Below, piece by piece: positions 3,524 through 23,954 of a stretch of 64,000 nt of DNA; within the stretch, counting starts at the first letter, position 1; the number at the start of each line of letters is the position of its first letter. Under the pieces are notes generated by a model. That model had not been told where the DNA came from, made no database searches, and saw only the letters and a list, made by a program, of their open reading frames with translations. The translations under genes and the position numbers were made by a program. Where the stretch lies: assembly GCF_009258045.1 (NCBI RefSeq), contig NZ_CP041166.1, positions 496,001 through 560,000 on the forward strand, given 5' to 3'. Source of the stretch: Sulfurimonas xiamenensis. GTDB lineage: Bacteria; Campylobacterota; Campylobacteria; Campylobacterales; Sulfurimonadaceae.

Positions 3524-3528
3524 CCATA

Positions 3529-3612: not shown

Positions 3613-5013
3613 TTAATCAACTCTCCTATCACTATTTAGATAGTAAATTCTTTTTAAGTCATTATAGCTTTCTCTTGCTTCTTTAACATTAAGAATGATT
3701 TTTTGGTTTTCCATTGTCTCTATAACTACAAACTGAGTATCTAAATTATCAATGAGTTGGATAAAGTGTTTGAAGTTTTTCACTTTCACACCGTTTACAG
3801 TTTCAACCACAAAAGCACCTGACCAGTATCCTCGGTTTACATTATGAGGAAAAATCGTTTGCATCCAAACAACAGGTTCATCAAAATCTTCTGTTTTCCC
3901 TTTTTTATAAAAAAGCATATTAATACCGCTTGCTTTGTCTGATATAGCAGATATATAATTTTTTGTAAGTGGAGTAAACGCCAATCCGCCAAATATACAA
4001 TACCTTGGTTCTTTTTCAAACTCGTATACAATAAGCGGAGATAGTCTTTCAATAGTATGAGTAAAGGATACAATCTTCTTATCTCTTAGAACTTTGATAT
4101 TTAGAGTATCGCCAATTTGCTTTTTGTGCATCAAGAGTGAAGCGTTTACTCTTCCAAACTGAGATTCTATTGTTCCATCATTTGCAACTGCTTTGCCGTC
4201 AATTTCTAAAAGTATGTCATTCTCTTTAAAATCTTTGACACCATAATCAACTTTTGTGATTAGTATTCCGCTACCATCTTGTAATCCAAAATACTCTTTA
4301 ACACTATCATTTCTAATGAAATTGACAGATAAACCATCTTCTCCAAAGCCATCTACTTTTCCATCTTCAACATCTGTTAAAAATGTATTGATAATGACTG
4401 ATGGGACTATATATGAGATATTACTTGCATTTTTTAAGCTCATCATAGAAATACCAACAATATCCCCATTTTTGTCAATTGCTGGACCACCACTGTTCCC
4501 ACTGTTGATTGCTGCATCAACTTGTATTGCCAATAGCTGTTCTGCGCTCCAAACATAACTTGTATATTCAATTCTTGAGATTACACCAGTTGTGGTTGAA
4601 ATGGATTGTCCTCCAAGTGGATACCCTAATACGGTTATCTCATCTCTAGGTTTTACATTTTCATTTAGTTTTAATGGTTTTGTTCCTTTAAAAAAGCCTG
4701 CATCTTGCACTTCAACTATCGCTAAGTCTGCCTGATGAGAGATATACTTAACATTAGCAATATATTTTTTAGGGTCGTTTTCTTTTTGAACTTCTAAAAA
4801 TTTTGCACCACTTACAACATGCGCAGATGTTAATATTCTATTTCCATCAATAATCGCGCCTGAACCTACATACCTAAAAATCTTGCTCGTTTGCCAAGGG
4901 TATTTGTAATCTGCTGTTGACGTTGATGTGTGTATCTTTACAATAGATTCTATTGGTAAGCTTGAAGCTACTAAAAAAGTTGTAGATATTAGTAGTAAAA
5001 ATAATTTTTTCAA
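3613..5013 (-). CDS. Periplasmic Deg/HtrA-type serine protease with PDZ-like C-terminus
   Basis: The 466-aa protein has a clear signal peptide (first ~18 residues) and a trypsin-like domain with the full triad: His65 in LTSAHVV, Asp96 in QADLAIVEV, Ser174 in GNSGGPA. A PDZ-type domain (about 250-330) and a distal region with FGGLAFTPLTKNY, resembling the C-terminal PDZ of plant-type Deg2/Deg9 proteases, follow. It should cleave or hold misfolded proteins in the periplasm. It is the last gene of a nine-gene minus-strand operon, 21 bp after the preceding gene. It is probably cargo, since the host would carry its own DegP. Substrate and regulation are unknown. Confidence 0.88.
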   Translation of the reverse strand: MKKLFLLLISTTFLVASSLPIESIVKIHTSTSTADYKYPWQTSKIFRYVGSGAIIDGNRILTSAHVVSGAKFLEVQKENDPKKYIANVKYISHQADLAIVEVQDAGFFKGTKPLKLNENVKPRDEITVLGYPLGGQSISTTTGVISRIEYTSYVWSAEQLLAIQVDAAINSGNSGGPAIDKNGDIVGISMMSLKNASNISYIVPSVIINTFLTDVEDGKVDGFGEDGLSVNFIRNDSVKEYFGLQDGSGILITKVDYGVKDFKENDILLEIDGKAVANDGTIESQFGRVNASLLMHKKQIGDTLNIKVLRDKKIVSFTHTIERLSPLIVYEFEKEPRYCIFGGLAFTPLTKNYISAISDKASGINMLFYKKGKTEDFDEPVVWMQTIFPHNVNRGYWSGAFVVETVNGVKVKNFKHFIQLIDNLDTQFVVIETMENQKIILNVKEARESYNDLKRIYYLNSDRRVD

Positions 5014-5034
5014 AAAAATTCCTTTGTCTTAATT

Positions 5035-6027
5035 TTAGTATTTGTCTTGGAGCACTAAACTGTTGGCAATGTAGACAAAAATTGGCTTGTAATCAGAAAA
5101 AAGTTGAAGAAGCTCTTTGTCTGAAAGTTTATTTTCATAAGTTCCAACCATCCCTTGAATTGCTATTGCTTTGTTTTGAAAAAAAATCATATATTGAACC
5201 ATTTCCATATCAGATTTAAAATCCAACCTTTGCAATGTTATTTTCATTCTTTGCATAATCCCATGACTATCTTCTAAGGTTATAGGTTCGCAACTTCTTA
5301 ATATAGCTCCATCTGGTATTTCTTGACACATCTCATTTATAACATCTTTATTGAAGTCTTGAGCTGTAAATCCATCAGGGATATTTTTTACCATAATATT
5401 AGATGTTATAAAAGATTTTCCATCAATCATATAACCGTTGTTGGCAGTAAATTTTTGGACAATATTTGGTCTGTTGGCTTCCTGTGCTTTCCAACTTTTA
5501 GGAACTTTTATCGAAAATTTGACACCTTTTGCTTTCCCATTTCCATTACTAATGAATTTCAGATAAAAGCCATCTTGTAGTTCAGATAATTTATATTTTT
5601 GATATGAGGGATTAAACATCAAAAGTGTTTCTATGATAGGAGAATCAATGCTTCCCCTTGCTCTTAATTTAACTTCTTCTAAAAATTGCAGCGCTTCAGT
5701 TTCAGACAGATTACCTAAATCAAGTTGTTTTGGTATTTGATTGTGTATATTACTTTTTAAATCATTCCAACTTGACTTGATTTTTTTAGACATAATGTTG
5801 TCAATATTCTTTAAAGAACTATCAAAACTTATTTTAAATTCATGTTCAGCCAGAAAAACTTGATTTTTTAAATGTGGATATTTATTTTTTATCTTGTTTA
5901 AAGTATATGATTGACCTATATAGTACCCGTAGGTTTTCGTAATATCCATAAACAGTTGTTTGTTTATATCTATTGCTGTAGCTTGAACATTCAAAAAAAT
6001 AATAAGGAGTAATAAATAAAATTTCAT
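5035..6027 (-). CDS. Secreted protein of unknown function (cargo operon)
   Basis: The 330-aa protein has an N-terminal signal peptide (MKFYLLLLIIFLNVQATA). I do not recognise the mature part, which is mixed alpha/beta. A central segment VKFSIKVPKSWKAQEANRPN followed by a stretch ending in FQNKAIAIQGMVGTYEN resembles, in general style, periplasmic proteins of the PsbP/Mog1-like fold, but that is only an impression. It lies between the TM-anchored J-protein gene (18 bp upstream) and the Deg protease gene (21 bp downstream), so it may be a partner or substrate adaptor of the protease. Confidence 0.75.
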   Translation of the reverse strand: MKFYLLLLIIFLNVQATAIDINKQLFMDITKTYGYYIGQSYTLNKIKNKYPHLKNQVFLAEHEFKISFDSSLKNIDNIMSKKIKSSWNDLKSNIHNQIPKQLDLGNLSETEALQFLEEVKLRARGSIDSPIIETLLMFNPSYQKYKLSELQDGFYLKFISNGNGKAKGVKFSIKVPKSWKAQEANRPNIVQKFTANNGYMIDGKSFITSNIMVKNIPDGFTAQDFNKDVINEMCQEIPDGAILRSCEPITLEDSHGIMQRMKITLQRLDFKSDMEMVQYMIFFQNKAIAIQGMVGTYENKLSDKELLQLFSDYKPIFVYIANSLVLQDKY

Positions 6028-6045
6028 ATTTTAAAAGGTTGATTT

Positions 6046-6519
6046 TCAGTTATAGATTGCATATAGAATTATATTTCCAATAATTACTACCAGTATCATA
6101 ACTTTTGTTTTTTCCCAAGCTGCATTTGTAGCAGCTTTAGACATTCCAACTAAATCTTCAACAGACATCATAACCATTTCTTTTGCCTGCTGTTTTGCCT
6201 TTTTTATCCAATTGTTGAGTATATCATCATCAATTGAGTAGCTTTCCCAATTAGTTTGTTCTCTCGTATAGCTTTCTGAAACCGTCTGCTCTTGTCCAGT
6301 AGCCTGTTTAAATTTTTGATATTGTTTGTCATATCTCAATCTGGCTTCATCATCTTTGAGAATTAAATATGCTTCATTGATAAGCTGCATTCTAGCCGTC
6401 GCTTCAGGAGAGCTATTTCTATCTGGATGCCATTTCAATGCTTCTTTTTTAAATGCAGCTTTGATTTCTTTTTTTGTGGCGTTATGCTCTATATTTAATA
6501 TAGCATAATAATCAATCAT
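6046..6519 (-). CDS. J-domain protein with C-terminal membrane anchor
   Basis: The 157-aa protein opens with a complete J domain (residues about 2-65): DYYAILNIEHNATKKEIK, the essential HPD triad in WHPDRN, and helix IV with YDKQYQKF. A Q/E/S-rich linker follows, and the last ~20 residues (ILVVIIGNIILYAIY) form one membrane helix. It would recruit and stimulate an Hsp70 (DnaK) at the inner face of the inner membrane. There is no Gly/Phe or zinc region, so it is a class III J protein. Its start overlaps the stop of the preceding gene (TAATG), implying translational coupling. Confidence 0.88.
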   Translation of the reverse strand: MIDYYAILNIEHNATKKEIKAAFKKEALKWHPDRNSSPEATARMQLINEAYLILKDDEARLRYDKQYQKFKQATGQEQTVSESYTREQTNWESYSIDDDILNNWIKKAKQQAKEMVMMSVEDLVGMSKAATNAAWEKTKVMILVVIIGNIILYAIYN

Positions 6520-6722
6520 TAATCATCTTTATCGAGACTAATTTCTTTACTGCTTTTAGGTTGATATTTCCAAATAGCTCCAATAGCAGCAAACATCCCA
6601 GCTGCTACAATCCACATTGGTAAAACACCGAATTGACCACTCACTCTCATGATTGAAAATATTGTCATTCCCACAAAAAATGTGATTATAATCAATAGTG
6701 ATTTTAATAGAAACCTTTTCAT
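6519..6722 (-). CDS. Small two-helix membrane protein
   Basis: This 67-aa protein has two predicted transmembrane helices (about residues 7-24 and 33-51) and a short charged C-terminal tail. No family is recognised. Its stop overlaps the ATG of the J-domain gene, so the two are probably made together and may interact in the membrane. Confidence 0.65.
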   Translation of the reverse strand: MKRFLLKSLLIIITFFVGMTIFSIMRVSGQFGVLPMWIVAAGMFAAIGAIWKYQPKSSKEISLDKDD

Positions 6723-6811
6723 TATTTTTCCTTATTTATAAATGATTCAAATATGCTACCCACAAGCTACTTAAATACATATTATTTCATAAATTTTAAT
6801 TATATAAATTG

Positions 6812-8158
6812 CTATTTCAAATTTTTCAAATACTCATATGCTGCATTGATTTCTTTCATTTTAGCTTCTGCTTCGTGAATAAATTCTTCTCCTAAATGCC
6901 TCATCCTATCAGGATGAAATTTCATTGCCAGTCTTCTATATGTTTTCTTTATTTCATCTTGTGTCGCATTTGCATCAAGTCCTAATACATCTAAATAATG
7001 TTCTTTTTTAGTTTTGTTTTGTTTGTGAGATTGGTGTTTGAACTCATTATACATTGAGCCCTTAATACCAAAAATTGTTTCAGCTTCCAGTAGTAGTAAT
7101 TCTTCCTCTGCGCTAATTGTGCCATCGGCAATAGCGATTAAGAATAAAACATCCAATACTGCACTTAATAAATTCGTATCAAAATTGTTCAATAAGATAT
7201 TTGCATAGTATTCAAAAGGTTTTGGCGAATATTTTGCTTGATTAAAGGTATTAAGCATTTCAGTTTTTGCTTGATTCTCCAACTTCATAGTTTTTGATAA
7301 AAACTCTTTAACTACTTCTACTTCTTCTGGACTTACAACTCCATCTGCATACGCTAATTTAGCCATGAGCGACAACGAATTGTCTAAAAATATATTTGCA
7401 TTTCGTTTTGTTTCTTTATAATGCTTGTAGTTGTTAATGTAGTCATCAGGGTCTTGAGGGTTTTGTAGGATAAAGTTTACCAATGCTGATATAACATCAT
7501 CGTTGTAATCAATGAATGCAGTGAAGGATTCATCAGCATTAACTTTAATGTTAATCATTCCCCTAGATAAAGTAGCATCAAATAATGACATTTTTTTATC
7601 TTCAAAAGACACTCTGCCATCTGTATATACCTTGGCTTTTCCAGATAGTTCTTTTTGTTTTTTGCCAAAGAAACCATCAACTTTATAGAAATATTTACAA
7701 TCCCTTAAAATGAAATAACCATTTTTTTCCATAAAGTCTGTAAAATATTTTAATCTGTAATCAAATGTTTTTTGAGCAATATAATTATATGCTTTAACAA
7801 GTTTAGGAGCTACATACATTGTTTGCTTGCTTACTTCTATGAGCTTATCGCCACTTACGACAATGCTAACATCAACTTGCTGTGTATTTATGACACCATT
7901 TGTAGTTGTAGATTTCCAATAAATTTTAATATGTGTAACATCTGCAAAAGAATAAGTTTGTTTTTTGTATTTGAACCTGTTTGGATATACCTCAAGACCA
8001 GCAGTAGAAAGAGGATGTTCCTCAGATATGATATTTGCATTTTCTTGTGCTTTTTTTACTGCCGCAGCACCTTTTTGTAATGCTTCCGCACCCTTACCAA
8101 GAGCTTCTGCTCCTTTACCAACAGCTTCAGCAGCTTTTCCTAAAAAGTTTTCAAACAT
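6812..8158 (-). CDS. TerB-like and J-domain protein (DjlA-like architecture)
   Basis: The 448-aa protein has four visible parts. An N-terminal amphipathic segment has repeated KGAEAL units (about 8-40). A beta-rich region (about 55-250) looks PH-like. A TerB-like helical bundle (about 258-370) has [13 protein letters not shown] and [13 protein letters not shown], the acidic turn motif twice as in TerB. A C-terminal J domain (about 385-448) has HPD in KFHPDRM. TerB followed by a terminal J domain is the order in DjlA co-chaperones, but the N-terminus is different and lacks a transmembrane anchor. It likely delivers clients or membranes to DnaK. It is the second J protein of this operon. Confidence 0.87.
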
Positions 8159-8170
8159 TGTTGTTCCTAT

Positions 8171-8827
8171 CTAAAAGTCAGATTTATTTATATTGGTTGT
8201 CCTTAAGTTACCATTACTAACTCTGTATAATGTGATGGTATATCCATTGATTTGATAGCCTGTATCTCTAAATGAAAACATCTCATCTGCTTTGCTATAT
8301 CCTGTATCAGGTCCAAATAGATAATTATATCCATACCATTTATCTCCAGAAGCATATGTGATTTCATAAGTTCCTAAAGGTACTTTTGTTTCTAGAGTAT
8401 TTCCACCACGAATGAAGATAGTCATTACTGCTTTCTTTGTATAATAATCTTTTAATTTAACAACGTAATTTGAGCCATGAGAAGTATTGATTTTTAACGG
8501 TGCGACTCTATTTTCATATGTAAAAGTTTGAATCTCTCCGTTATATGGAAGAATTTGTTCTGGATGGCTAAAAGTAGGCTCTGATTTTGTTGTTTTTTTA
8601 CCTGAAGAACTATCTTGTGAACTAATAAAAAATATAAAACCTGCAATCGCTACTAACCAAAAAATCCAAGCATAACTTGTAGGATTTTCAGCTTTTTTTT
8701 CTTTTTCTATTTCTTTTGGATTTTTATAGATAATTTTCCAACACTTGCCACACTTGGCTTCTTTTATGTTTTCATCATTTATTCTATTTTTTTGACCACA
8801 ATTTGGACACTCAATAATCCTCTCCAT
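8171..8827 (-). CDS. Zinc-ribbon, single-pass membrane protein
   Basis: The 218-aa protein begins with a zinc ribbon of two CxxC knuckles (ECPNCGQ and AKCGKCWK, residues about 7-30). A charged stretch and one transmembrane helix (about 52-70) follow. A C-terminal domain of about 140 residues is probably extracytoplasmic and of unknown fold. The topology suggests a link between a cytosolic zinc domain and a periplasmic module. It starts 3 bp after the upstream gene and is followed 12 bp later by the TerB-J gene. Confidence 0.75.
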   Translation of the reverse strand: MERIIECPNCGQKNRINDENIKEAKCGKCWKIIYKNPKEIEKEKKAENPTSYAWIFWLVAIAGFIFFISSQDSSSGKKTTKSEPTFSHPEQILPYNGEIQTFTYENRVAPLKINTSHGSNYVVKLKDYYTKKAVMTIFIRGGNTLETKVPLGTYEITYASGDKWYGYNYLFGPDTGYSKADEMFSFRDTGYQINGYTITLYRVSNGNLRTTNINKSDF

Positions 8828-8830
8828 AGA

Positions 8831-9166
8831 TTATCGTTGTCCATTGAGTTTTTGAGTTGCTTTCCATGCTGAATACGATTGCTTACCAGCGCAATTTTGG
8901 TTGAAATAGTTAATCATGCGGCTATGTTCATTAACTTTTTGATTGTAATTGTTAACAGCAGCACTATCGTATTGATTTACATAAGTATTGTTTAGTTTTT
9001 CGCCCAACCATTCAGCTTCATTGTAAATCTTTACACATTTTTCCATTGCTTCATCTGATATAACTGGAACACTGCCTCTAGTGCTGCTTGTTGGTGGTGC
9101 AACATATTCCCTAGCACTCAAAGAGCAAATTAATGTCAGTGTGATAAATATTATTGACTTGTTCAT
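8831..9166 (-). CDS. Small secreted protein
   Basis: The 111-aa protein has a signal peptide (MNKSIIFITLTLICSLSA) and a mature helical part with two cysteines (EKCVKIYNEAEW and NQNCAGKQSY) that could form one disulfide. No family is recognised. It ends 3 bp before the zinc-ribbon gene in the same operon. Confidence 0.65.
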   Translation of the reverse strand: MNKSIIFITLTLICSLSAREYVAPPTSSTRGSVPVISDEAMEKCVKIYNEAEWLGEKLNNTYVNQYDSAAVNNYNQKVNEHSRMINYFNQNCAGKQSYSAWKATQKLNGQR

Positions 9167-9200
9167 AATGTTCCTTTATGATTTTGAATTATTTGAAAAA

Positions 9201-9629
9201 TTATTTTTTAAACAATTTTCTTATTTTTTCCAAATTCGCGGAAAATGTTTCATATTCTTCGCCGTTATCTTGAATTACACTTCTAGAAACAATATCTTGA
9301 AAAGTACGTCTAGAGTCTTCTGCCGATTGTAGATATTTAGATGAAAATTCACTATTCTCAGTCATGTTGAAATACCATTTACAAACCTTATTCATATCAA
9401 CACCATTCACAACTCTCATTGACATTAAAGTTAACATATCTAGTGTTGCATCTTTTTGTGATACAGCTAATCCAAGTATATAATTTCGATTATCCGTCCA
9501 TTTATTAGCTAAAACATCTCTACAGCCATTGTAAATCCAATCTTTGTTAATATCAAATGATGCTTCCGTATTTTGTTCAGCTGCATGAATTAAAGAGATT
9601 AAACTCAACAACAAAATTAATTTTTTCAT
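9201..9629 (-). CDS. Small secreted protein
   Basis: The 142-aa protein has a signal peptide (MKKLILLLSLISLIHAA) and two mature cysteines (YNGCRDVLANKW and NKVCKWYFNM). The mature part is mostly helical and polar. I do not recognise it. The pattern of a Trp/Cys-containing helical periplasmic protein recalls Rap/Tai-type immunity proteins, but the similarity is too weak for a call. It is the second gene of the cargo operon. Confidence 0.65.
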   Translation of the reverse strand: MKKLILLLSLISLIHAAEQNTEASFDINKDWIYNGCRDVLANKWTDNRNYILGLAVSQKDATLDMLTLMSMRVVNGVDMNKVCKWYFNMTENSEFSSKYLQSAEDSRRTFQDIVSRSVIQDNGEEYETFSANLEKIRKLFKK

Positions 9630-9641
9630 AATTCCACCTTA

Positions 9642-9920
9642 CTATATTTTTTTAACTTGATTAGCATCACATACTTCTCCATCAATATACATTATTGCAC
9701 TTTCATAATCGCAAAAATCATCTTTTAAGATTTGCACATCAGAACTAGAATAAATATAGCAATAAGTTTTAATTAAAATATCTGAGCCGTAACCACCTTT
9801 TAAAACTATAGAGTTGCTATCCAACACTACAAAATTTGTTTTATCTTTTGCACCGTAAACACAATCTGCACCTAATTGACCGAAAACTAATAATAAGCTA
9901 AATAAAATCCTAGATACCAT
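9642..9920 (-). CDS. Small secreted protein, first gene of cargo operon
   Basis: The 92-aa protein has a signal peptide (to about residue 18) and several cysteines (DCVYG, KTYCYIYS, DDFCDYES, EVCDAN) suggesting disulfides in the periplasm. No family is recognised. Upstream on the minus strand, TATAAC (about 9938-9943) is a plausible -10 for the whole operon. The next gene is 12 bp away. Confidence 0.62.
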   Translation of the reverse strand: MVSRILFSLLLVFGQLGADCVYGAKDKTNFVVLDSNSIVLKGGYGSDILIKTYCYIYSSSDVQILKDDFCDYESAIMYIDGEVCDANQVKKI

Positions 9921-10007: not shown

Positions 10008-10030
10008 AGTTCACATAAAATATGCGAACT
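10008..10030. repeat. Imperfect palindrome at the ardA stop
   Basis: AGTTCACATA-aaa-TATGCGAACT has 10-bp arms with one mismatch and ends on the ardA stop codon. It lies between ardA and the cargo operon promoter. It may serve as a factor-dependent terminator (no U tract is seen) or as an operator for the cargo promoter. Confidence 0.5.
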
Positions 10031-10560
10031 TATCTCATATATTCCCAAATAATGCCGTTTTCATCAGTGTAAAAGCTCCCATTAATTTCCATATCTCTTC
10101 CAAGAGCTTCATAATCAAAATAAAACTGTAGATTTTCGGGCATATTTCTTAAAGCTCCAGTTTCCTCTATGTAATTATAGGCAACATCTTCCATTTTACT
10201 CTCTCCAGTGCAAAGCATATCATCTATGTGCTCTATTGCTTCTTCTATATCGCTAACAACATAATTTTCAAGCATTAGTTTTACAGCCGTTCTTTCATGC
10301 TCATCCAGTCTGTCCATATCTTCAGCGATGATGTTTAATTTTTCTAAATCTGCATATTCATCTATTTGCATATAGTCGCATTCATAATCGGTTATAAAAT
10401 ACTCTTCGTGATGATGGTCTGAGCCGCATATTTGTCTGCCCTTATAAAGCTCATTCTCTATCGCCTCAGCCAGTTCATCCGAACTCATTGGCAGTGTATG
10501 CCAAGCTCCAACTAAGTGTCCGTTATTGTAAGCCTCTAAATCTGTTATATATACTCTCAT
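10030..10560 (-). CDS. ardA: ArdA-family antirestriction protein
   Basis: From ATG at 10560 the protein is 176 aa. It begins RVYITDLEAYNNGHLVGAW, the typical ArdA opening, followed by an IHDYE-like stretch (YFITDYECDYMQIDEYA) and the C-terminal ENLQFYFDYEALGRDMEINGSFY module. The protein is strongly acidic, as expected of a B-DNA mimic that occupies type I restriction enzymes. I chose ATG 10560 over the upstream in-frame extension because AAAGGA lies five bases before it and homology starts there. Such genes protect incoming mobile DNA. Upstream is a cluster of hairpins. Confidence 0.9.
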   Translation of the reverse strand: MRVYITDLEAYNNGHLVGAWHTLPMSSDELAEAIENELYKGRQICGSDHHHEEYFITDYECDYMQIDEYADLEKLNIIAEDMDRLDEHERTAVKLMLENYVVSDIEEAIEHIDDMLCTGESKMEDVAYNYIEETGALRNMPENLQFYFDYEALGRDMEINGSFYTDENGIIWEYMR

Positions 10561-10933: not shown

Positions 10934-10978
10934 AAAAGCCAAATACCATTTATAATCTTTATAAAAGAGGTGTTTAAA

Positions 10979-11296
10979 ATGGGTATAGAATCAATCATCA
11001 AAGAGCTTTCACGAGAAGAGCTGGAGGGCAAATTTATCAATATGTTTAACGACTACAGCGTGCTAAAAAACAATCATAAAAATCAAGAAGAAGTGCCACT
11101 TGTAGACTTTAGCGATTTTAAGATAAGAAGACGGCAGCAATATCTTCATAAGACATATTCTCAACACGCGCCTGTTCTAAACGGAATACTAAAATTATAT
11201 ATGGATACGCAAGATAAAAATCTGCACCACTATCTTTCAGAGCTAAATGCACAGCTGGAAAAAAAGGCTCAAGAGAATAATGACTTTGCTAAGTAG
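10979..11296 (+). CDS. Small hypothetical protein
   Basis: From ATG at 10979 (RBS AGAGG eight bases upstream; a GTG nine bases earlier is less likely) the protein is 105 aa. It is charged and helical with a basic centre (FKIRRRQQYLHKTYSQ). No family is recognised. It is the only plus-strand gene between the integrase and the 18.2-kb genes, and it lies between the ardA leading segment and the putative replication origin. It may therefore be an accessory DNA-binding protein, but nothing proves it. Confidence 0.6.
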   Translation: MGIESIIKELSREELEGKFINMFNDYSVLKNNHKNQEEVPLVDFSDFKIRRRQQYLHKTYSQHAPVLNGILKLYMDTQDKNLHHYLSELNAQLEKKAQENNDFAK

Positions 11297-11367: not shown

Positions 11368-11403
11368 GAGGGTTGGCTTTGCGAAGCAAATAGCCAATCC
11401 CTC
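11368..11403. repeat. Compound hairpin near rep
   Basis: GAGGGTTGGCT pairs with AGCCAATCCCTC (one bulged base), and the loop itself is the hairpin TTTGC-GAA-GCAAA. The 36-nt structure is the strongest fold in the non-coding region next to rep. Confidence 0.75.
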
Positions 11404-11455
11404 TCATCACTAATGGTTCAAACAATGTTTAGATTTTATGATAAATGGCTGATGT

Positions 11456-11492
11456 GGGTTGGTGAGTCGCTTGAATAACTATTAACCAACCC
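11456..11492. repeat. Inverted repeat GGGTTGGT / ACCAACCC
   Basis: Perfect 8-bp arms (11456-11463 and 11485-11492) enclose a 21-nt loop. The arms share the GGTTGG core with the neighbouring compound hairpin and with AGGGTTG at 11295, suggesting a family of related sites. Confidence 0.65.
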
Positions 11493-11502
11493 TTATAACC
11501 CA

Positions 11503-11686: not shown

Positions 11687-14600
11687 TTAAGCGACTAGTA
11701 GTGGTTCAAGAAAGGAGAGCTGCATCTCTTTTTGAACATTGTCTTTGTAATTCGGATAGTTTTTTATTTTTTGCAGATAGGCTTCATCAATCATAAAATC
11801 TACATAGCTCATAATCTCATCTTCACTGATATATCCCTTGATATACATATCTTCAACATAAAGCTTCTGATACAACTTACCATCTAGAATCTCTAGGTTG
11901 GCGTTTGCTTGGGTGTATATTGTATCAATCATATCCTCTGTTGGTAAAAAGCTGTGATGTGGATAGTCCGCTCTTCGTTTGGAAATATTATGTCGTAAAA
12001 CACACCTGCTGTCTAAATGCTTATCGATAAGTGTTTTGCTCACGTAAAAGCCGATGATTTTTTTGTCGGTCCTAATATGGGTGTAATCTTTACTATCATG
12101 CAGCACTTCATTGGCAGCATGCTCCCAGACTACATCATCTGTTACGTTATCGTTACGGGTATCCAAGAAAAGACTGTTTACATCTTTTAAAAATTCTGCG
12201 TTTTTAAATCCTTCTTTGACACGTCTTTCATACTCAAACCTAAAATTGCCGTTTAGCTCCTCTTTCTCCAACCAGTAGTAAAGCGGTTTATTTGTGCGTT
12301 TCATAGCACTTAAAACATGTGGCGCGTTCTCTTGATACCATTTATACATCTTATCTAAGTGCAATTGTGTCGTGTGCTCATAGTTTGATATGCCTGTGAT
12401 TTTCACTTCAGAGCCAAGCATAGATTCCCATGCGTTGAAAAATAGGATATCTTTATCGTCATCATTATCTGCAAAAGCGTTTTTCATAGTATATTTGGCG
12501 ATATATGAGGCTGGAGAAGCTACTTTGTTAAAGAGTATCTTATCAATTTTTGTAAGTCTCTTTTGCGCTTTTTTGATAACTAACTCACTTGCAAAATTAT
12601 CTTCTAAATTTCTAATTTCTTGAATTAACTCCAGCTTCTCTAAAAGCAGCTTATTAAAGTCTATACTCTTGACATCCTCAACTTTTAGTATCTTTTGAAA
12701 ATCATTGAACTTTGGATTGAGATTGAAGTTGATAATGGTTTTTCTGTAAGCATCCCTTACTAAATAATCTATCTCATCATCTACAAATATCAGTATATGA
12801 ATATGGCTCGTCATATTTTTATGAGGCTCAAGCTGCCTAAAATATGCAACATCAGCGTTTGTAAACTCTGGATATCTCTTTTGATAGTTGCTGATACTTG
12901 TTTTTAGGATGTGGTAAAAATATGTCCATACCTCATTTATTTTTTTAGCAGAGTTGATGATATGCTCTTCTAGATTATGTCCGCACATTTGAAAGTTTGG
13001 ATTATCTTCTAGGATTGCCTTGTCTCCATATTTGCGTTCCTCTGTTAGAGATTTAGCTTTTGTTTTCCAGCGATGCCACTCACTTGGCAGCGTAAAGGTA
13101 ATAAAGGAAGCTCGTTTGTCTTGGTTTTTGTGCTCAATATATTTTATCTTTGACCATCTCTTTGTTGCTAAGAGCTTTTTTCGGTTGTTGATGAAGTTAC
13201 CCATAAGCATCTCTTGCTGGTATTGGTAACCATTTAGTTGGTCATAGCCAAAATCTATTATCGTATCACGAAGAAGTGTCTGATATTTTTCATCTGATAA
13301 ATCCACCATAGGCTGCTCATTTAATGTGTCATACATCCCTAGAACCGTATTGGTAAAATATCTTTTTTCCTTGTCACTTTTTATGAAGTAATCGTTCTTC
13401 ATACTTGCTACAAACTCTTCATACTCGTAGATATGAGAGTTTTTTAGCTTTTTATCGATTTTAGCTTGTCGTATCTCAAGAGCTTTTTTGGATTTTTCTT
13501 TCGTAATGTCGGTATATTTTTTAGATACTGCATTTACAACTATCTTTTTGAAGCGTTTCATCCACAAGACATCATCACTCTCTACATCAATATCAGCCCA
13601 GTTAGTATAATTGATAAGATGGTGGATAGCATCTGTAAAGGTGTTGTTGAGATAGTCATAGTTGATACGCTCATCGTTTAAAAACAGTTCTCTTGTAGTA
13701 TCAATTGCATTGATGGCAACTTTTAAAGGGATGTTGTAAATTTCGTTGATGGTTTTAAACTCCTCAAGTAAAAGCAGCATAAACTCAATATCATCTGTGC
13801 TTAGTGCATTGATATCTTTTATCTTTTTGGTTTGCAGCTGTTTATTGGTCTCTTTAATAAAATTGTTGATAAGTGCTTTGGCATTGGAGTCTTGATATTT
13901 TTGTGTATATGTTACTTCATCAATTTCTATGAATGCTACTCTATCGCTCCCTGTAAAGTCTATATCATCGTAAAATGAGTTCTCAAATTCAAGTGTCTGT
14001 TTATTGGGGTTAGATACAACTTGATGCTGCATATATGGCTTATGAAGCAGATTTTTTGTGTAGGTGTTAATCTCTTTTTTGCTTGTGATGATAAGGTTCT
14101 CTTTTGCTCGCGTGATAGCTACATAATAAAGTCGCTTCTCCTCTTCATCATCTAGGTTTCTTGGAAAAACTCCATCTTCAAAGTTGTATAGTATGACGGT
14201 GTTAAACTCCAAGCCTTTGGATTTATGGATACTCATGATTTGCACACCATCTTGTGTGATATAGTTTTGCTCTTGGAGCCAATGATTGAGCCGCGTTTGC
14301 ACATTTTTTAAAAATAACTCTGTATTTTCTTGAGAAAATATCTTGTATATCTTATCTTGCCAGATATGGAGTCGCTCCTCTAACTCTTCATAGCCTCTGT
14401 TGATAAGATAGTTCGTGATGTTGTTAGAGTGAAATATCTGTGTAATAGCGGCAACTGTATCTACGATACTATGAGCCTGAGCCGCATCAATTATTTTTCG
14501 CCACTCATCTATTTCAAACCGTTCAAAGTAGATATCATCAGCGACGTAATTGTTTTTTATCATCAGCAACATGGCATATAGGATATATTCCAGCTCTTGA

Positions 14601-15727
14601 TAGTTTCTTTTTTGGTATGGCACTTGCCACTTCTCTAAAATATCTTTTATCTCTTGAATATGATAGTTGTTTCGTGCCAAGATACAGATATCATTCAACT
14701 CATCATTGCTTTTGTGAATCAGCTCTGGCAAGGTAAAATCAGAGATATTTTCAAGCACTTTGATATCTGAGTTTGGCTTCTCATCTGTAGCCGTTACTGG
14801 TTGGATGTCCTCTAACTTTTCAGTTAGTGACGTATCAATAAATGCGTTGGAAAAATTAACGATGTTTTTACTTGAGCGGTAGTTTGTATTAAGCTGGATG
14901 ATAGGTGTTGCTTCTATCAGCTCAATGGTCTTTTTGAAATTTGCACCTTGAAAGCTATAAATGCTTTGATAGGGGTCTCCAACCATAAAGAGATTATTGG
15001 TCTGTATCATCTGCAATATCTCTAAAACAATGCTATTGGTATCTTGAAACTCATCTACCAAGATGTGATTGAACTTCTTTTGCAGCGTTGTTCTGTTGAA
15101 CTCATCCTCTTTGATAAAAAAATAAGTTTCTATCAAGATATCATCAAAGTTTAAAACTCCATTTGCTCTTTTTTGCTCAAAGAATGCTTGGATGATGTTG
15201 ATATTAGACTTATAGTGTAGCTTCTCTTTAAGCAGCACGTTTAATTTTTCAAAAAACATCTCAATGTTCTCACACTCTAGAGCGAGCTCTATGTTTTTGC
15301 TGATGAACTCACTTAGCTTTAAAGGGGATTCTATTTTTACTTTGAACTGTTTTGTGTCAAATAGCTCGCTGTGAAAATTGTGCTCAAGGTAGTAGTTGTA
15401 TCTGTATTCATCGTATATCTGCATCGATGAGAGATAACTGTATTTGCTTTGCTCGAACTGGGTCATGCTTTGCAGCAGCTTGAAAAATACTGCGTGGAAT
15501 GTGCCAAGATATTTCATCTCTTCACGCGTGTTTAATCTGTGGTTGAACTCGTTTGCCGCTTTTTGAGTGAAGGTAAGGGCTAAGATTTTATCAGGATAGT
15601 TGGCGCGTAAAAGTTTTTGCAGCCTCTCGACAAATACAGTTGTCTTACCAGCTCCAGCACCGCTGATAACAATAGTGTTGCCAATTGCTTCAACTGCTTG
15701 TATCTGTCTGTCGTTCAATCCTTTCAA
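11687..15727 (-). CDS. UvrD/PcrA-type helicase fused to P2 gpA-like HUH replication endonuclease
   Basis: The 1346-aa protein combines two normally separate replication enzymes. Residues about 1-580 are an SF1A helicase: Walker A GAGAGKTT (23-30), DEFQDT (225-230), GDPYQSIYSFQGA (250-262), TNYRS near 284, the IMSIHKSKGLEF motif and YVAITRAKENL. Residues about 860-1130 match the phage P2 gpA/phiX174 A family: FITFTLPSEWHRW, LEPHKNMTSHIHILIF with the metal-binding HIH (His975, His977), and SYIAKYTMKN with two catalytic tyrosines (Tyr1075, Tyr1079). The protein should nick one strand at the origin, stay attached and unwind it for rolling-circle replication. The segment 600-860 is unassigned. Start is TTG with AGGGAG upstream. 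Sequencing error is not suggested, as the frame is open throughout. Confidence 0.92.
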   Translation of the reverse strand: MKGLNDRQIQAVEAIGNTIVISGAGAGKTTVFVERLQKLLRANYPDKILALTFTQKAANEFNHRLNTREEMKYLGTFHAVFFKLLQSMTQFEQSKYSYLSSMQIYDEYRYNYYLEHNFHSELFDTKQFKVKIESPLKLSEFISKNIELALECENIEMFFEKLNVLLKEKLHYKSNINIIQAFFEQKRANGVLNFDDILIETYFFIKEDEFNRTTLQKKFNHILVDEFQDTNSIVLEILQMIQTNNLFMVGDPYQSIYSFQGANFKKTIELIEATPIIQLNTNYRSSKNIVNFSNAFIDTSLTEKLEDIQPVTATDEKPNSDIKVLENISDFTLPELIHKSNDELNDICILARNNYHIQEIKDILEKWQVPYQKRNYQELEYILYAMLLMIKNNYVADDIYFERFEIDEWRKIIDAAQAHSIVDTVAAITQIFHSNNITNYLINRGYEELEERLHIWQDKIYKIFSQENTELFLKNVQTRLNHWLQEQNYITQDGVQIMSIHKSKGLEFNTVILYNFEDGVFPRNLDDEEEKRLYYVAITRAKENLIITSKKEINTYTKNLLHKPYMQHQVVSNPNKQTLEFENSFYDDIDFTGSDRVAFIEIDEVTYTQKYQDSNAKALINNFIKETNKQLQTKKIKDINALSTDDIEFMLLLLEEFKTINEIYNIPLKVAINAIDTTRELFLNDERINYDYLNNTFTDAIHHLINYTNWADIDVESDDVLWMKRFKKIVVNAVSKKYTDITKEKSKKALEIRQAKIDKKLKNSHIYEYEEFVASMKNDYFIKSDKEKRYFTNTVLGMYDTLNEQPMVDLSDEKYQTLLRDTIIDFGYDQLNGYQYQQEMLMGNFINNRKKLLATKRWSKIKYIEHKNQDKRASFITFTLPSEWHRWKTKAKSLTEERKYGDKAILEDNPNFQMCGHNLEEHIINSAKKINEVWTYFYHILKTSISNYQKRYPEFTNADVAYFRQLEPHKNMTSHIHILIFVDDEIDYLVRDAYRKTIINFNLNPKFNDFQKILKVEDVKSIDFNKLLLEKLELIQEIRNLEDNFASELVIKKAQKRLTKIDKILFNKVASPASYIAKYTMKNAFADNDDDKDILFFNAWESMLGSEVKITGISNYEHTTQLHLDKMYKWYQENAPHVLSAMKRTNKPLYYWLEKEELNGNFRFEYERRVKEGFKNAEFLKDVNSLFLDTRNDNVTDDVVWEHAANEVLHDSKDYTHIRTDKKIIGFYVSKTLIDKHLDSRCVLRHNISKRRADYPHHSFLPTEDMIDTIYTQANANLEILDGKLYQKLYVEDMYIKGYISEDEIMSYVDFMIDEAYLQKIKNYPNYKDNVQKEMQLSFLEPLLVA

Positions 15728-15841: not shown

Positions 15842-16315
15842 TTAGATAGCGGTAAATACATATCCCATACTAGTTTCTGCATAATCGTATTGCAATAATG
15901 AATTCCATACATCTTCATAATCAATGTAAGGAAGTGCTTCTTCACTCACTTCGCCAAGGATTTGCCATTCTGTTATTGACATTTCAACAAACTCATCCAA
16001 ATCCATATGATAAATGCCCATTTCATCTTTGTGTTCTAGAATATATTTCAACTCATAACCAAGTTCATCAGCTACGATTAAAAATTTCTCCAACTCATCT
16101 TCCGTTACATCATATTTTTCTGTGATGTATTCGTGGATGTCATTGATTTTTTCTCTCGCCATCTGTTTTATCTCGAAAGTTGAACTCTCTTCATTATCAA
16201 GTTCATCTTCTATCTCTTCACTAATAAGTAAGATATACTCATCTCCAGCGATACCTTCAAATTCAGTCTCTGCGACCATACTCTCTACTATGTCATATAT
16301 TTTTTGTGTGCTCAT
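15842..16315 (-). CDS. Acidic protein, ArdA-like C-terminus (putative second antirestriction protein)
   Basis: The 157-aa protein is extremely acidic (many Asp/Glu, few basic residues). Its end EALPYIDYEDVWNSLLQYDYAETSMGYVF resembles the ArdA C-terminal module seen in the 10.0-kb gene (ENLQFYFDYEALGRDMEINGSFY). The N-terminal part is a helical acidic segment of no recognised family. A DNA-mimic, antirestriction or anti-host-factor role is inferred. ATG at 16315 has AGGAC upstream. It ends in a strong terminator before rep. Confidence 0.6.
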   Translation of the reverse strand: MSTQKIYDIVESMVAETEFEGIAGDEYILLISEEIEDELDNEESSTFEIKQMAREKINDIHEYITEKYDVTEDELEKFLIVADELGYELKYILEHKDEMGIYHMDLDEFVEMSITEWQILGEVSEEALPYIDYEDVWNSLLQYDYAETSMGYVFTAI

Positions 16316-18200: not shown

Positions 18201-19772
18201 ATGAGAAAAAAGAGAAATATAGTTTATAAAAAGACTACAGTAAGGGATAAAAGAAGCTTTTTGCGTTCGTTAGATTTATTCACTAAGAATAATAATGAAG
18301 CTTTTATTGAGAATACAAATCTTGAAAGTCTAAATGAAATCACTTTTTACTCGCCTCTGAATAAGTTAAAATCTCTTTATTGGCTTGATGAACCAGTGCA
18401 ATGTTCTTTAAAAGATTTTGATTTCCAATATAAACTGTTTTCAACTGTAGACCCGATAAATATCTCTTATGAAGATAGTCCATATAAACTTGGCGAGTTT
18501 AAAAGTGGTAGCGGTATGATTTACTCTAAAATCGTATCTGATACAAGACTTTCAGACTATACATTTGTCATGAACGAGATAAACAACTTAATCAGTATTA
18601 GCCGAAAAGTAAATTATAATACCGCCCTACAAGATATCATTGAAGAATATACATATAAATACAGTGATGATACAAACGAGTGGATAACCTATTTTTTTAA
18701 TGGCTATGATGTTGAGGAGAAGATAAAAAAAATTGAAGCTGCTCTGGCTCACTACAATGAAATCACTGAGCATAACACTCCAAAAGCTTATAAGCTTCCA
18801 ATTTCTAGCCATGAGAGTGCATCTGATAGAATAAAGAGACTCTATGTAAATTCAAAATCGTATGCCACTTTGGCAAAAAAAATATATACGCAGCTTCTTA
18901 GAAGAGTGAAATACAATGAAATCGGTTTTTACAAAGTGCCGACTGATGACAAATATAAAAAAGAAGTGATACCGATACAGTATATATCTCCACTTGATAG
19001 AATGCAAAGTAGAGTCAACTTCATCTTAAAAAGGCAGTGGCTATTAGATAGGCATATTTTAAATGCTCTCAGAGATAGGTTGATGACACATAATCAAATC
19101 AACACTGAAAACGTTGAAGAAGATTTGATATCTACCATATCAAGGATTTTTGGGATTGATATAAATGAGAGCATCGAGGATGACCGATATCAAGACTCCA
19201 TAAAGATTTTAAAGCAGCACTATTTTAAGTATGAAGGACTTGATTCTTATGATTATGAGTTTTTGGACGATGAAACGAAGAGCTGGAACTATGAAGATGC
19301 AGTTGAATATATTGCAGAGCTCAATCAATATATCAAAGAGTTTGTGGGCGAAGATGAAACTACAGATGAATCTCCCCAGAAAAAAGAGCCACTTACGACC
19401 ATTGAAAAGGAGTGGGAAGATTTATACGCTAAATTACTTGACGGTATTCTTTCAAATACTCTTGAAAAGAACGAATATTATAAAATCAGCTCTATTGCCC
19501 AAGAGCTAGTGCAAGAATACGATTTTTTGATAGAGAATAAAGTCTTTTTAGAAACAGGCAAGCTCAATATGAAATGTAAATTTGTGCAATCTCTAAAACA
19601 GGAGCTGCTTAAAAAAATCCATGCTAAGGATGATGATACAAAATTAGAGCTATCAACCAATTTTATATCGGAGAAAAAATCAGAGTATCTTTTGCTGCAG
19701 GATACAATTGAGCACTATCCGTTTATAAGAGCACTGCAGGATTTTGATTATAAAACTTTATTGTATTCGTAA
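18201..19772 (+). CDS. Hypothetical protein, 523 aa
   Basis: No family is recognised. The protein has a basic, short N-terminus (MRKKRNIVYKKTTVRDKRS), a long mainly helical body and an acidic, lysine-interrupted C-terminal half (a D/E-rich hinge near 390-400). It has no signal peptide or membrane helix, so it is cytoplasmic. It is the first gene rightward from the divergent promoter; ATG 18201 has GGA nearby. A role in the element's DNA processing is only suggested by position. Confidence 0.65.
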   Translation: MRKKRNIVYKKTTVRDKRSFLRSLDLFTKNNNEAFIENTNLESLNEITFYSPLNKLKSLYWLDEPVQCSLKDFDFQYKLFSTVDPINISYEDSPYKLGEFKSGSGMIYSKIVSDTRLSDYTFVMNEINNLISISRKVNYNTALQDIIEEYTYKYSDDTNEWITYFFNGYDVEEKIKKIEAALAHYNEITEHNTPKAYKLPISSHESASDRIKRLYVNSKSYATLAKKIYTQLLRRVKYNEIGFYKVPTDDKYKKEVIPIQYISPLDRMQSRVNFILKRQWLLDRHILNALRDRLMTHNQINTENVEEDLISTISRIFGIDINESIEDDRYQDSIKILKQHYFKYEGLDSYDYEFLDDETKSWNYEDAVEYIAELNQYIKEFVGEDETTDESPQKKEPLTTIEKEWEDLYAKLLDGILSNTLEKNEYYKISSIAQELVQEYDFLIENKVFLETGKLNMKCKFVQSLKQELLKKIHAKDDDTKLELSTNFISEKKSEYLLLQDTIEHYPFIRALQDFDYKTLLYS

Positions 19773-19893
19773 CAAGTTGGATAAATTTTGATAATAAAAT
19801 CTTCGTTTGTAGCATAAAGAAGCCAAGAGCGCTATAATTTAGGCATTATTTTAAAAAATATTTAATAAAGTACAAAAAACTACAGGAAAGAAA

Positions 19894-20670
19894 ATGCCAC
19901 AATACAAAGTAAATGTTGAAGTGTTAAAATCTCTAATGTATGGTGACTGTTCTACCCTTAAAGATGTTAAATGGTCTATAGAAAACAATCAATTAACACT
20001 TGTGAATACAGAAACATCTTTTACTTGCAGTGAAGTAAACTACACCAACATATCTAAAAAAATAACGAATAAATATAAAACGACACATCCATATAGAAAT
20101 GTACAATATGAATTTTTTATGAATGGCAATAGTGAAATTTCTAAACCTGAGATAGAAGACATAATAAAGTGGTTTAGTGTCTCTATAAACGATACTGGTT
20201 TTGAACGAGGGCAAAGGTACTCAATAGTGATTACTGATGTAGCAAATAACACCGTAGTTTTACATGAAAATACAATTCAATTTAGATATCAAGTTGATGT
20301 AGATATTAACACGACAATATTTATTGATGAAACCAAAGAGTTCATATATGATAACGCAAGTAAGTATGGAAGTACAAAATTTTATGACTTTGTAGATAAA
20401 TCAATAGATGAGAGATTGGTTCCATATTCTTTTAGGAAAGTTGAAAATATATACCTAAAAAAATATATTGATGGATATATTTCTAATAAAAAAACAAACA
20501 AAGTAACTGGAGAAAAATATAGAACAATGAAGTTCAATTATACTTTTTTAACACGTCATATACTTTCTGAAAAAGAAATGGATTTAATAATGAGTTTTTG
20601 GAAAGAAAACAGTTTAAAGTGTTCTGTTGGTATAGAATTAGTTACAAGAGAAAAATGTGAAGATGATTAA
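19894..20670 (+). CDS. Hypothetical protein, 258 aa
   Basis: The protein is soluble, alpha/beta and not recognised. It has no signal or membrane segment. ATG 19894 is preceded by AGGAAAG. A separate promoter in 19773-19893 (AGCGCTATAATTTAGG, with TATAAT at about 19835) looks good, so it can be expressed on its own. It converges with the FtsK-like operon, with 3 bp between stop codons, leaving no room for a separate terminator. Confidence 0.6.
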   Translation: MPQYKVNVEVLKSLMYGDCSTLKDVKWSIENNQLTLVNTETSFTCSEVNYTNISKKITNKYKTTHPYRNVQYEFFMNGNSEISKPEIEDIIKWFSVSINDTGFERGQRYSIVITDVANNTVVLHENTIQFRYQVDVDINTTIFIDETKEFIYDNASKYGSTKFYDFVDKSIDERLVPYSFRKVENIYLKKYIDGYISNKKTNKVTGEKYRTMKFNYTFLTRHILSEKEMDLIMSFWKENSLKCSVGIELVTREKCEDD

Positions 20671-20673: not shown

Positions 20674-22374
20674 TTAGATAGAATTAAACAGCTCCATCTC
20701 ATCAATGTTTGATGAAGTGCTTTTCTCTTGAGGTGTGTTCTGAGATTTTTTTTCAGCTAGTGATTTTTCTGCAACTGCAAAAATATCCTCCATCTCATCC
20801 TTTTCAATGTCTTCAAAAGTATCGTAAAAGGTTTTTTTACCAGATTTCTCAAGCTCATCCATCATCTTGTTAAAGACGTTGACGGCTTCAATAGCTATCT
20901 CTTTGTAGCTATGAACCTCTTGCAATACCTCTTGCGCTTTAAAATTAAGCGGCATTTGATTGAGCTCATCAATATTAAACTCTATGCCGTTTTGGACAGT
21001 AAAGCCATCTTGAAGCTCATTTGTAAGCATATCCCAGTAGATATATTGCCCTTGTTTTAATTCAAGTGGATTAAGAGCATTTTTCTCAGTAATGTCATTG
21101 TTGACAACTAAGTGCGCCGAACTGATATTTTCCTGTTTTAGCATGAAACGATTTCGTAAATTACTTCTATAAGCAGTAGATGGCAGTGAGCTTACATCTG
21201 CTTTTTGCAAGATATTGATAAGGCTTCCGTTACTTGCCCTGATTTTTGAACCTAAAAACTCTAGTATAGCCAGAGATTCTTGCACTGTATTTTTCATAAT
21301 TTTGTGTAGAGATTTTGATTCAAGTGTTTCGTTGAGTGTTTGTACTTCATCTATAATAACAAGAGTTTGATATGCAGTAAAATTATCAATAGAGTGCACA
21401 GAGTTATATTTATACTTCGTCATCATATCCAGCTGCACTTTTTTAAGGATTTTCAATCCACCTGCAATATCATCCGCATATTCAACTTTATCAAGCGGCT
21501 GCAAGAAGTTATAATCAGCACTTGCTTTATAGTTGATGATATATATCTTATCGATATATGGGTAGTTATACTTGGTTAAAAAGTTTTTCATAAACTCAAC
21601 CATCGTAAATGACTTTCCTGAGCCTGAACCGCCAACGATTAACCAGTTACCATTTAGCAAACCGTTACCTTGCTCTTTTTGAGTACCATATACGGGTGTA
21701 GCGTTTGTATCGCTAATACCAAGGAATAGTTTATCTTTTCCAGTTAAAGGTTTAAAATCCATCTTTGGAACATTATCCTTATCTGGCATCACTTCACTAA
21801 ACACAAGAGTGATTTTATCATTCTCATTTCTGCTTGCTTTTAATTTACCAACATCAAAGAGCTGCTTTAAATCTTCGGCTCTATCCAAAAAGCCTTGGTA
21901 GTTTATGGAAGCACCGCGAATCAGTTTAAAAGTGAATGTTCGCGTCTCTAAATCATACTTATGCAGATAGTATTGGTTTAGGTTCAAAGAAGCAAGATTA
22001 GCTTGTATATCTGCCAAAAATACATTATGCTTGACCTTTTTCTGAATCAGATACAGAGGCAATGATGCCGATATGAGGATATTGAGCAAGAACTCCACTG
22101 AAAGATTTTGTGTTACATTTGTGCGTAACCACTGCTTATACTCTGCAAAGAACAGCTTTTGAAAATCAAGACTTTTAACATCATTGATATCCAAGACCTG
22201 CTCATTAAATAAAAACTGCATCTGTGCTATGGAGTAACTTAAAGCTGCAAAGATAACGATGAAGATGAATAACATTGACTGCGACATCTTTTCTCTATCG
22301 ATATAACCTCGGATATCATAGTAACCATTTGCCCACTCATCACTGCCGTTTAGATTCTTTTTAGCATTAGCCAT
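20674..22374 (-). CDS. Membrane-anchored FtsK/HerA-type DNA-pump ATPase
   Basis: The 566-aa protein has two membrane helices near the N-terminus (about 33-50 and 94-112), then a P-loop ATPase: Walker A VGGSGSGKSFT (about 248-258) and Walker B TLVIIDEVQTL (about 340). Downstream lies an arginine-containing segment (SNLRNRFMLK). The order resembles conjugative coupling or FtsK-type translocases (TraB of AICEs, Orf21 of Tn916). It lacks an obvious FtsK gamma domain. It likely hexamerises at the inner membrane and moves element DNA, but a role in transfer rather than segregation is inference. It is the last gene of a five-gene operon beginning at 23954 and overlaps the membrane protein gene by 8 bp. 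Confidence 0.82.
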   Translation of the reverse strand: MANAKKNLNGSDEWANGYYDIRGYIDREKMSQSMLFIFIVIFAALSYSIAQMQFLFNEQVLDINDVKSLDFQKLFFAEYKQWLRTNVTQNLSVEFLLNILISASLPLYLIQKKVKHNVFLADIQANLASLNLNQYYLHKYDLETRTFTFKLIRGASINYQGFLDRAEDLKQLFDVGKLKASRNENDKITLVFSEVMPDKDNVPKMDFKPLTGKDKLFLGISDTNATPVYGTQKEQGNGLLNGNWLIVGGSGSGKSFTMVEFMKNFLTKYNYPYIDKIYIINYKASADYNFLQPLDKVEYADDIAGGLKILKKVQLDMMTKYKYNSVHSIDNFTAYQTLVIIDEVQTLNETLESKSLHKIMKNTVQESLAILEFLGSKIRASNGSLINILQKADVSSLPSTAYRSNLRNRFMLKQENISSAHLVVNNDITEKNALNPLELKQGQYIYWDMLTNELQDGFTVQNGIEFNIDELNQMPLNFKAQEVLQEVHSYKEIAIEAVNVFNKMMDELEKSGKKTFYDTFEDIEKDEMEDIFAVAEKSLAEKKSQNTPQEKSTSSNIDEMELFNSI

Positions 22375-23243: not shown

Positions 23244-23954
23244 TTATGCAAGTTCAGGAAATACTTCCGTTGAATAAAAAGTGCTTCCATTCACACGAAC
23301 GTCTTTGATGAAGTTGATTCTGATTTTTTTATCAAGCACTGGTGTGAACATCTTTTTATCGTATTTCATCTCAGTAGCTTTTAATTTGCATTCAAAAGTT
23401 TTTATGGAACCATCAGATTCATTTTTTATTGAGATTAGCTTTACATCGCCAGTTGGCTTGTCTTTTTTCATTACATTGGAAACACTTACTAGGTCAATCT
23501 CAACATAAGCGTTAATGGAGAACTTCTCTTTTATCGCTGAAGTATCTTCAACTACTTTCATATTTTCAAGTTTACCGCCAAAGGTATGTGTTCTTGAGCG
23601 TTCATTCCCTTGAAAGTCTCTATCTATATGCGTATATCTTGTAATATCCGTTACTTTTACATATTTACCGATTAGTTTTTTTATATCATCCTCTTTGATA
23701 GCACCGTTTAGTGTAAAAGTGTTCTCAATCAAACCGCCAGTCTCTTCATCTATAACAGCCGTTTTTAATTGAACCTTGTTTGGTCTACCTTCGCTATCTG
23801 TTGAAATTCTATAGGCGTTGATTAATGCCGTGATATCAAATCTCATAAATGCTTGTTCTTGCTCTACTGCCTCTTTGTCAATATCTAACATCTCCATAAG
23901 AGATTTTGAAAGTTTTACTTCTTCTACTTGTTTTTCATTTTTTTTATTATCCAT
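23244..23954 (-). CDS. Hypothetical protein, first gene of the FtsK-like operon
   Basis: The 236-aa protein has a charged N-terminus and a beta-rich body (LKTAVIDEETGGLIENTFTLNG, SINAYVEIDLVSVSNVM). The overall style suits an OB-fold or Tn916-type DUF961-like ssDNA-binding or accessory protein, but no motif proves it. In rolling-circle elements a protein in this place often binds single-stranded DNA. It is followed 29 bp later by the acidic 70-aa gene. Confidence 0.5.
   Translation of the reverse strand: MDNKKNEKQVEEVKLSKSLMEMLDIDKEAVEQEQAFMRFDITALINAYRISTDSEGRPNKVQLKTAVIDEETGGLIENTFTLNGAIKEDDIKKLIGKYVKVTDITRYTHIDRDFQGNERSRTHTFGGKLENMKVVEDTSAIKEKFSINAYVEIDLVSVSNVMKKDKPTGDVKLISIKNESDGSIKTFECKLKATEMKYDKKMFTPVLDKKIRINFIKDVRVNGSTFYSTEVFPELA

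Follow-up and report, generated by a model that had tools for sequence, protein, structure and literature searches.

The window analysed here is a 64,000-nt stretch of the Sulfurimonas xiamenensis genome (contig NZ_CP041166.1, positions 496,001 to 560,000), and all positions refer to it; the source genome is called G000, and the genomes compared with it G088, G089, G196 and G200. On the minus strand, positions 11687-15727 encode a 1346-amino-acid protein in which an N-terminal UvrD/PcrA-type helicase is joined to an HUH endonuclease, and the gene lies within a 24.3-kb integrative mobile element. The original prediction, made from the letters of the window, had described a 1346-codon frame at this place, and we confirm it as single and intact, opening with a TTG start that has AGGGAG upstream; the plus strand across the same interval contains stops throughout. 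The minus strand and the mobile-element context are additions to what had been stated.

The helicase half (residues 4-551; positions 14075-15718, minus strand) matches PF00580 (1.1e-47, residues 4-267) and PF13361 (2.8e-31) in profile search. Every motif of the full UvrD/PcrA set that had been placed at residues 23-550 is present: GAGAGKTT (23-30), TFTQKA (52-57), DEFQD (225-229), GDPYQSIYSFQG (250-261), NYRSS (282-286), IHKSKGLE (500-507) and VAITRAK (536-542). Both profiles and motifs I-VI identify a superfamily 1A (SF1A) helicase, and the motif residues are kept in a full-length relative in G088. Its scores fall far below the NCBIfam equivalog cut-offs (uvrD 190.5 bits versus 1144, pcrA 178.5 versus 911, rep 165 versus 951), and judged by sequence the domain is no UvrD, PcrA or Rep orthologue. 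Because the best match in the host genome is only 30% identical (across residues 3-314), the helicase is not a recent acquisition from this host.

The HUH endonuclease domain (approximately residues 860-1110; positions 12398-13147, minus strand) carries motif 1 FITFT, motif 2 HIH at 975-977 and motif 3 YIAKY at 1075-1079, the last two at exactly the residues predicted. It had been placed at the C-terminus, which holds for its position after the helicase and fails for the extreme end, as about 230 conserved residues lie beyond it. The region's own profile matches are weak (P2 gpA-like phrog_91 4e-6, phrog_6857 5.6e-6). BLASTP finds many stand-alone relatives of this part, about 350-530 amino acids long, mostly at 1e-6 to 1e-11 and the closest at 1e-34; pairwise similarity between the fusion and an inovirus-type Rep is 1e-10. 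The two relatives that were tested match PF05840 (4.9e-13 and 8.9e-28) and also pass PF23343, and because proteins aligning with it pass curated profiles, the HUH link is firm. Motif 1 (F..T), H975, H977, Y1075, K1078 and Y1079 are invariant in 10 of 10 aligned proteins (alignment residues 153, 155, 253 and 257, to which 822 is added for fusion numbering). HUH and YxxxY thus stand at the aligned positions of the Y2 gpA/gII class of HUH superfamily I, and the assignment by sequence is well supported.

Comparison of folds, the check proposed with the original prediction, speaks suggestively for the same assignment, through an AlphaFold model of the HUH part (five sequences) whose confidence is low (mean predicted local distance difference test, pLDDT, 43.6). 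Searched against viral structures, this model is most similar to O36160, a replication protein of an inovirus (E 1.5e-4, probability 0.98), with parvovirus NS1 nucleases next in rank. In the PDB the top match is the minute virus of mice NS1 nuclease (E 0.05), and VIA-align listed general alpha/beta folds and no HUH family, a non-specific result.

One of the stand-alone HUH relatives resides in an inovirus-type prophage of G000, and others are found in viral contigs with inovirus gene order or in P2-like phages. The G000 prophage (locus L038 510-7646, approximately 1326.5-1333.6 kb of G000:C1), judged by gene order, encodes a Zot-like ATPase, a secretin-like protein, a 431-amino-acid HUH Rep and a tyrosine integrase. 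Three very similar inovirus-type Reps are spaced about 13-14 kb apart in G200:C1 (L045, L046; 1999445, 2012621 and 2026307), and their arrangement suggests a tandem prophage array.

The relative in G088, a complete, single-contig genome of the same genus, is a fusion of 1454 amino acids (L041:6676-11040). The two proteins are 45% identical over 1406 columns by BLAST and 48% in a full alignment, and every motif is kept in unchanged order; by region, the helicase is 51% identical, the linker 40%, the HUH domain 51% and the C-terminal part 47%. Both halves have diverged together, and we therefore argue that the fusion is old and under selection.

The DNA around the fusion gene is bounded by a 37-bp direct repeat, CTGGATTCGAACCAG[T/C]GACCAAGTGATTAACAGTCAC, present as attL, a copy of part of tRNA-Asn, at 4-40 and as attR at 24287-24323 within tRNA-Asn(GTT) (24275-24349). 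A tyrosine integrase (229-1626, plus strand; PF00589 4.6e-19) adjoins attL. The site is empty in G089, where the order esterase, tRNA-Asn, tRNA-Met, groES, groEL is uninterrupted, and the G000 flanks aligned to G089 overlap by 58 bp exactly at the tRNA. Since the flanks meet there, the inserted DNA amounts to about 24.3 kb. Direct repeats, an integrase and an empty site in a relative are all found, as in a tRNA-gene integrative element.

The fusion gene of G088 lies in a comparable element of 24.9 kb, whose 30-bp repeat lies at the tRNA-Ser 3' end and whose integrase lies at the opposite end. Six genes are common to the two elements. In addition to the fusion, these encode the ArdA antirestriction protein (10030-10557, minus strand; PF07275 5.5e-37), three conserved proteins of 108, 157 and 236 amino acids, here orf108, orf157 and orf236, and an FtsK/SpoIIIE-like ATPase. 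The orf108 gene (10970-11296, plus strand) is convergent with the fusion gene and has a homologue, 41% identical, at the corresponding position in G088, and orf157 (15842-16315, minus strand) has one that is 39% identical. The ATPase (20674-22374, minus strand) has hydrophobic N-terminal segments by eye, and its family match is borderline: against a PF01580 cut-off of 24, it scores 24.8 bits in the genome search of G000 and 23 in the protein scan. Its G088 homologue has no PF01580 match, its G196 homologue matches the FtsK/SpoIIIE-like phrog_1358 at 2e-27, and its structure predicted without relatives is uninformative (pLDDT 35.9). The orf236 gene (23244-23954, minus strand) has no convincing profile match and is restricted to G000, G088 and G196 among 135 genomes of the genus; that its product is a single-stranded DNA (ssDNA)-binding protein is a guess only. 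The remaining cargo differs between the two elements, that of G088 comprising, by eye, type I restriction-like and other genes.

A third, compact element occurs in Sulfurimonas sp. STE_9 (G196), split across two contig starts (L105 1-4351 of C18 and L106 1-3738 of C17). Its integrase lies at tRNA-Ser, of which a 17-bp stretch is repeated, and it contains homologues of the ATPase and orf236. Its HUH protein, of 528 amino acids, is free of a helicase and is the closest stand-alone relative of the fusion. The three elements compared are equally compatible with a helicase gained in one branch and with one lost in the other.

In both fusion elements, the interval between the stop of the fusion gene and orf108 holds a candidate double-strand origin (11370-11497). 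It consists of a 28-nt block (11470-11497) and, about 70 nt past the block, a conserved hairpin with a GCTTCGC loop (11370-11401) whose stem pairing is kept via changes on both sides; apart from these two features, the intergenic regions align poorly. The block, common to G000 and G088, reads CTTGAATAACTATTAACCAACCCTTATA on the plus strand and TATAAGGGTTGGTTAATA..TATTCAAG on the minus strand. The local alignment score of the intergenic regions is 24, against a mean of 11.7 (sd 1.5, maximum 22) for 1000 dinucleotide shuffles. G000 and G088 each have a single copy of the block, the 226 other genomes of the family have none, and a reversed control pattern occurs nowhere. The strand complementary to TATAAGGGTTGGTTAATA..TATTCAAG reads CTTGAATA, and CTTGATA is reported to be the conserved nick site at the double-strand origin of pC194-type Reps (PMC10378824). 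Rfam gave two tRNAs only, so the candidate is no known RNA, and GC skew along the element has no clear origin switch. A terminator reading of the hairpin was rejected, as no terminator-like site was found on either strand of either element. These sequence features make the hairpin region with CTTGAATA a candidate double-strand origin.

We consider it probable, at roughly three chances in four, that the fusion protein is a self-contained rolling-circle initiator of the 24.3-kb element, replacing host UvrD, Rep or PcrA. The original prediction of a replication initiator with the order UvrD-HUH survives testing in this form, with the motifs kept in G088 and phage replication proteins as relatives of the HUH part. 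The integrase would excise the element as a circle, and the Y2-type HUH domain would nick one strand at the hairpin-flanked site just downstream of its own gene. The conserved residues and the candidate origin suggest that an HUH tyrosine then holds the 5' end. UvrD-type motors run 3'-5', a polarity consistent with entry onto the uncut strand at the nick and travel in advance of the polymerase. The tethered motor could thus unwind the circle in front of the host polymerase as this extends the 3' end, and the displaced strand would be closed by the second tyrosine of YxxKY. Transfer of the product to other cells, of the kind known from actinomycete elements, is a further possibility hinted at by ArdA and the FtsK-like ATPase.

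With motor and nickase in one chain, the usual need for host UvrD, Rep or PcrA would fall away. In elements of this class the HUH protein that nicks is encoded by the element, whereas unwinding usually depends on an SF1 helicase of the host, so a tethered motor would allow the element to be self-sufficient. Coliphages use host Rep and CTXphi uses UvrD (PMC4439123), Pf phage is also reported to use host UvrD (PMC4863604), and PcrA serves pT181-type plasmids and ICEBs1 (PMC3542172). Gene-II/gpA-type initiators raise the processivity of Rep helicase, and the authors of the ICEBs1 study proposed that a helicase of their own would benefit such elements by widening host range (PMC3542172).

Several observations weigh against this interpretation. 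The activities proposed are read from sequence rather than biochemistry, and the fusion-bearing elements known are two only, so that the candidate origin too rests on two sequences. Its CTTGAATA is not identical to CTTGATA, being one base longer. On its own, the HUH region scores 18.8 bits against PF23343, under the Pfam cut-off of 27.8, and does not match PF05840; its structural model is the low-confidence one described above. The helicase-less relative in G196 indicates that the element core can exist without the fusion.

The fusion could instead act mainly as a conjugative relaxase-helicase like TraI/TrwC (MOB-F), nicking at an origin of transfer and piloting one strand out of the donor, with the FtsK-like ATPase as coupling protein and replication secondary. 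The presence of ArdA and the ATPase fits this role, helicase-bearing relaxases and integrative and conjugative elements (ICEs) with rolling-circle relaxases exist, and TraI/TrwC resemble the fusion in joining an HUH nuclease to an SF1 helicase on a mobile element (PMC3542172). However, in TraI/TrwC the relaxase comes first and the helicase is C-terminal, the opposite of the order here. Those proteins also operate with a type IV secretion system (T4SS), whereas the VirB4-family ATPase (PF03135) that marks T4SS-bearing ICEs is absent from the entire G000 and G088 genomes. The HUH part has its relatives among phage replication proteins and not among MOB relaxases, and neither a TrwC-type domain nor any other relaxase profile in Pfam or NCBIfam matches the fusion. 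A UvrD-type motor is also a better fit for a rolling-circle fork than for piloting a strand 5'-3', and we regard a primarily conjugative role as improbable.

A still less probable explanation is that the element is a prophage or phage satellite that has gone unrecognised, packaged with the aid of a helper virus, and that the fusion serves to replicate it. Inovirus Reps are indeed the nearest stand-alone HUH relatives of the fusion, and G000 also holds the inovirus prophage with its Zot-like and secretin-like genes. Against this, no capsid, terminase, Zot, secretin or structural match was found in the 22 element proteins scanned, a search that short coat proteins could escape, and on these matches the element does not classify as a filamentous prophage; 24 kb is also large for a filamentous satellite.

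We think it very unlikely that the fusion is a defence protein carried as cargo, in which a UvrD-like helicase and a nuclease attack invading DNA. In favour stand an RT-Toprim gene in the element and matches of the UvrD half to models of GajB-type defence helicases (1.2e-55), but these matches reflect the general UvrD family, and the nuclease belongs to the site-specific Y2 initiator type. The fusion gene is moreover core to two elements whose cargo differs, and it is followed by a conserved origin-like site. Finally, a chance or assembly joining of two adjacent genes, named at the outset as what would overturn the prediction, can be dismissed because the same fusion, 48% identical and with a conserved linker, recurs in the independent single-contig genome G088.

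As a rolling-circle initiator, the fusion has its nearest sequence relatives among the Y2 initiators of inovirus gII and P2/phiX174 gpA type (PF05840/PF23343), including the inovirus Rep in G000. They share HUH and YxxKY with it, and the nicking chemistry is expected to be alike; they have no helicase of their own and use host Rep or UvrD instead, whereas the fusion has an N-terminal motor. Host UvrD, Rep and PcrA carry the same full SF1A motif set and are the kind of helicase that rolling-circle initiators recruit, but they are not joined to an HUH nuclease. Helitron RepHel, like the fusion, combines a Y2 HUH nuclease and an SF1 helicase in a single polypeptide. In RepHel, however, a Pif1-type helicase follows the HUH domain and the carrier is a eukaryotic transposon, whereas here a UvrD-type helicase precedes it on a bacterial tRNA-integrated element, and the fusion is thus no RepHel by domain order or helicase family.

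Two kinds of integrated element also offer parallels. In ICEBs1, the nickase NicK and a PcrA-type helicase drive replication and transfer, as the parts of the fusion may do, but that helicase is host PcrA, with a separate processivity factor HelP, whereas the fusion carries its own. Actinomycete ICEs such as pSAM2 resemble the element in having a tyrosine integrase, a phiX174-like rolling-circle initiator and an FtsK/SpoIIIE-like translocase, and no T4SS (PMC3218068). They are restricted to actinomycetes and their initiator uses a host helicase, whereas the hosts here are Sulfurimonas, the FtsK match is borderline and double-stranded DNA transfer would be an analogy only. We thus treat this likeness as a lead, not as membership.

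The original prediction knew of no named family with this domain order, and our searches agree. Among 50,697 phage and 72,556 plasmid records, no match covered at least 80% of the whole protein and only its UvrD half was matched; the HUH region had no match in these collections. Five records matching the UvrD half were considered as possible fusions and rejected, their UvrD frames being of 716-955 amino acids with no fusion. Scans of genome-contig and viral-contig collections found no other fusion, and searches across 228 genomes of the family and 397 of the class, two sets that overlap, found the HUH match within a long open frame only in G000 and G088. Coverage beyond Campylobacterota is thin, since the pattern-based scans of the collections pick up only close relatives. 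According to one published analysis, a helicase is missing from every prokaryotic Y2 initiator known (PMC6213432); according to another, none of the ssDNA viruses so far isolated from bacteria or archaea encodes a Rep-helicase fusion (PMC6668415). On this published view, prokaryotic ssDNA viruses have to use a helicase of the host. We found no UvrD-HUH fusion in the literature, in a search that left subscription papers mostly outside.

We put it at slightly better than even that the protein represents a previously undescribed class of prokaryotic rolling-circle initiator. In this class a Y2 HUH domain with its own N-terminal UvrD-type helicase would act as a complete machine for nicking and unwinding DNA. 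The elements it serves would be a new family in Campylobacterota, integrated at tRNA genes and perhaps transferred from cell to cell by an FtsK-like pump. The novelty is in the domain combination, not in new chemistry. Bacterial rolling-circle elements normally split the work, nicking with their own protein and unwinding with a host protein. The origin of Helitrons raises the question, still open, of how a Y2 initiator came by its helicase. If our interpretation is right, this initiator is an independent bacterial counterpart of the RepHel architecture. A natural UvrD-HUH fusion, a candidate origin and a helicase-free sister provide a ready system for testing whether a tethered motor frees an element from host UvrD, and the fusion may also serve as a compact strand-displacing tool.

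Elsewhere in the element, two plus-strand genes at 18201-20670, encoding proteins of 523 and 258 amino acids of no recognised family, break the minus-strand core; no homologue of either was seen in the G088 element. The cargo (1647-9920, minus strand) comprises, besides small proteins, an RT-Toprim reverse transcriptase, a trypsin/PDZ protease and proteins of DnaJ and TerB-DnaJ type. The reverse transcriptase is of RT-Toprim class I-C (PADLOC 6e-194). The protease comes directly after it and matches the protease half of RT-Protease_XI (1.6e-19), and the DnaJ and TerB-DnaJ proteins follow. This stretch, at 1647-8158, is possibly a multi-gene defence cargo.

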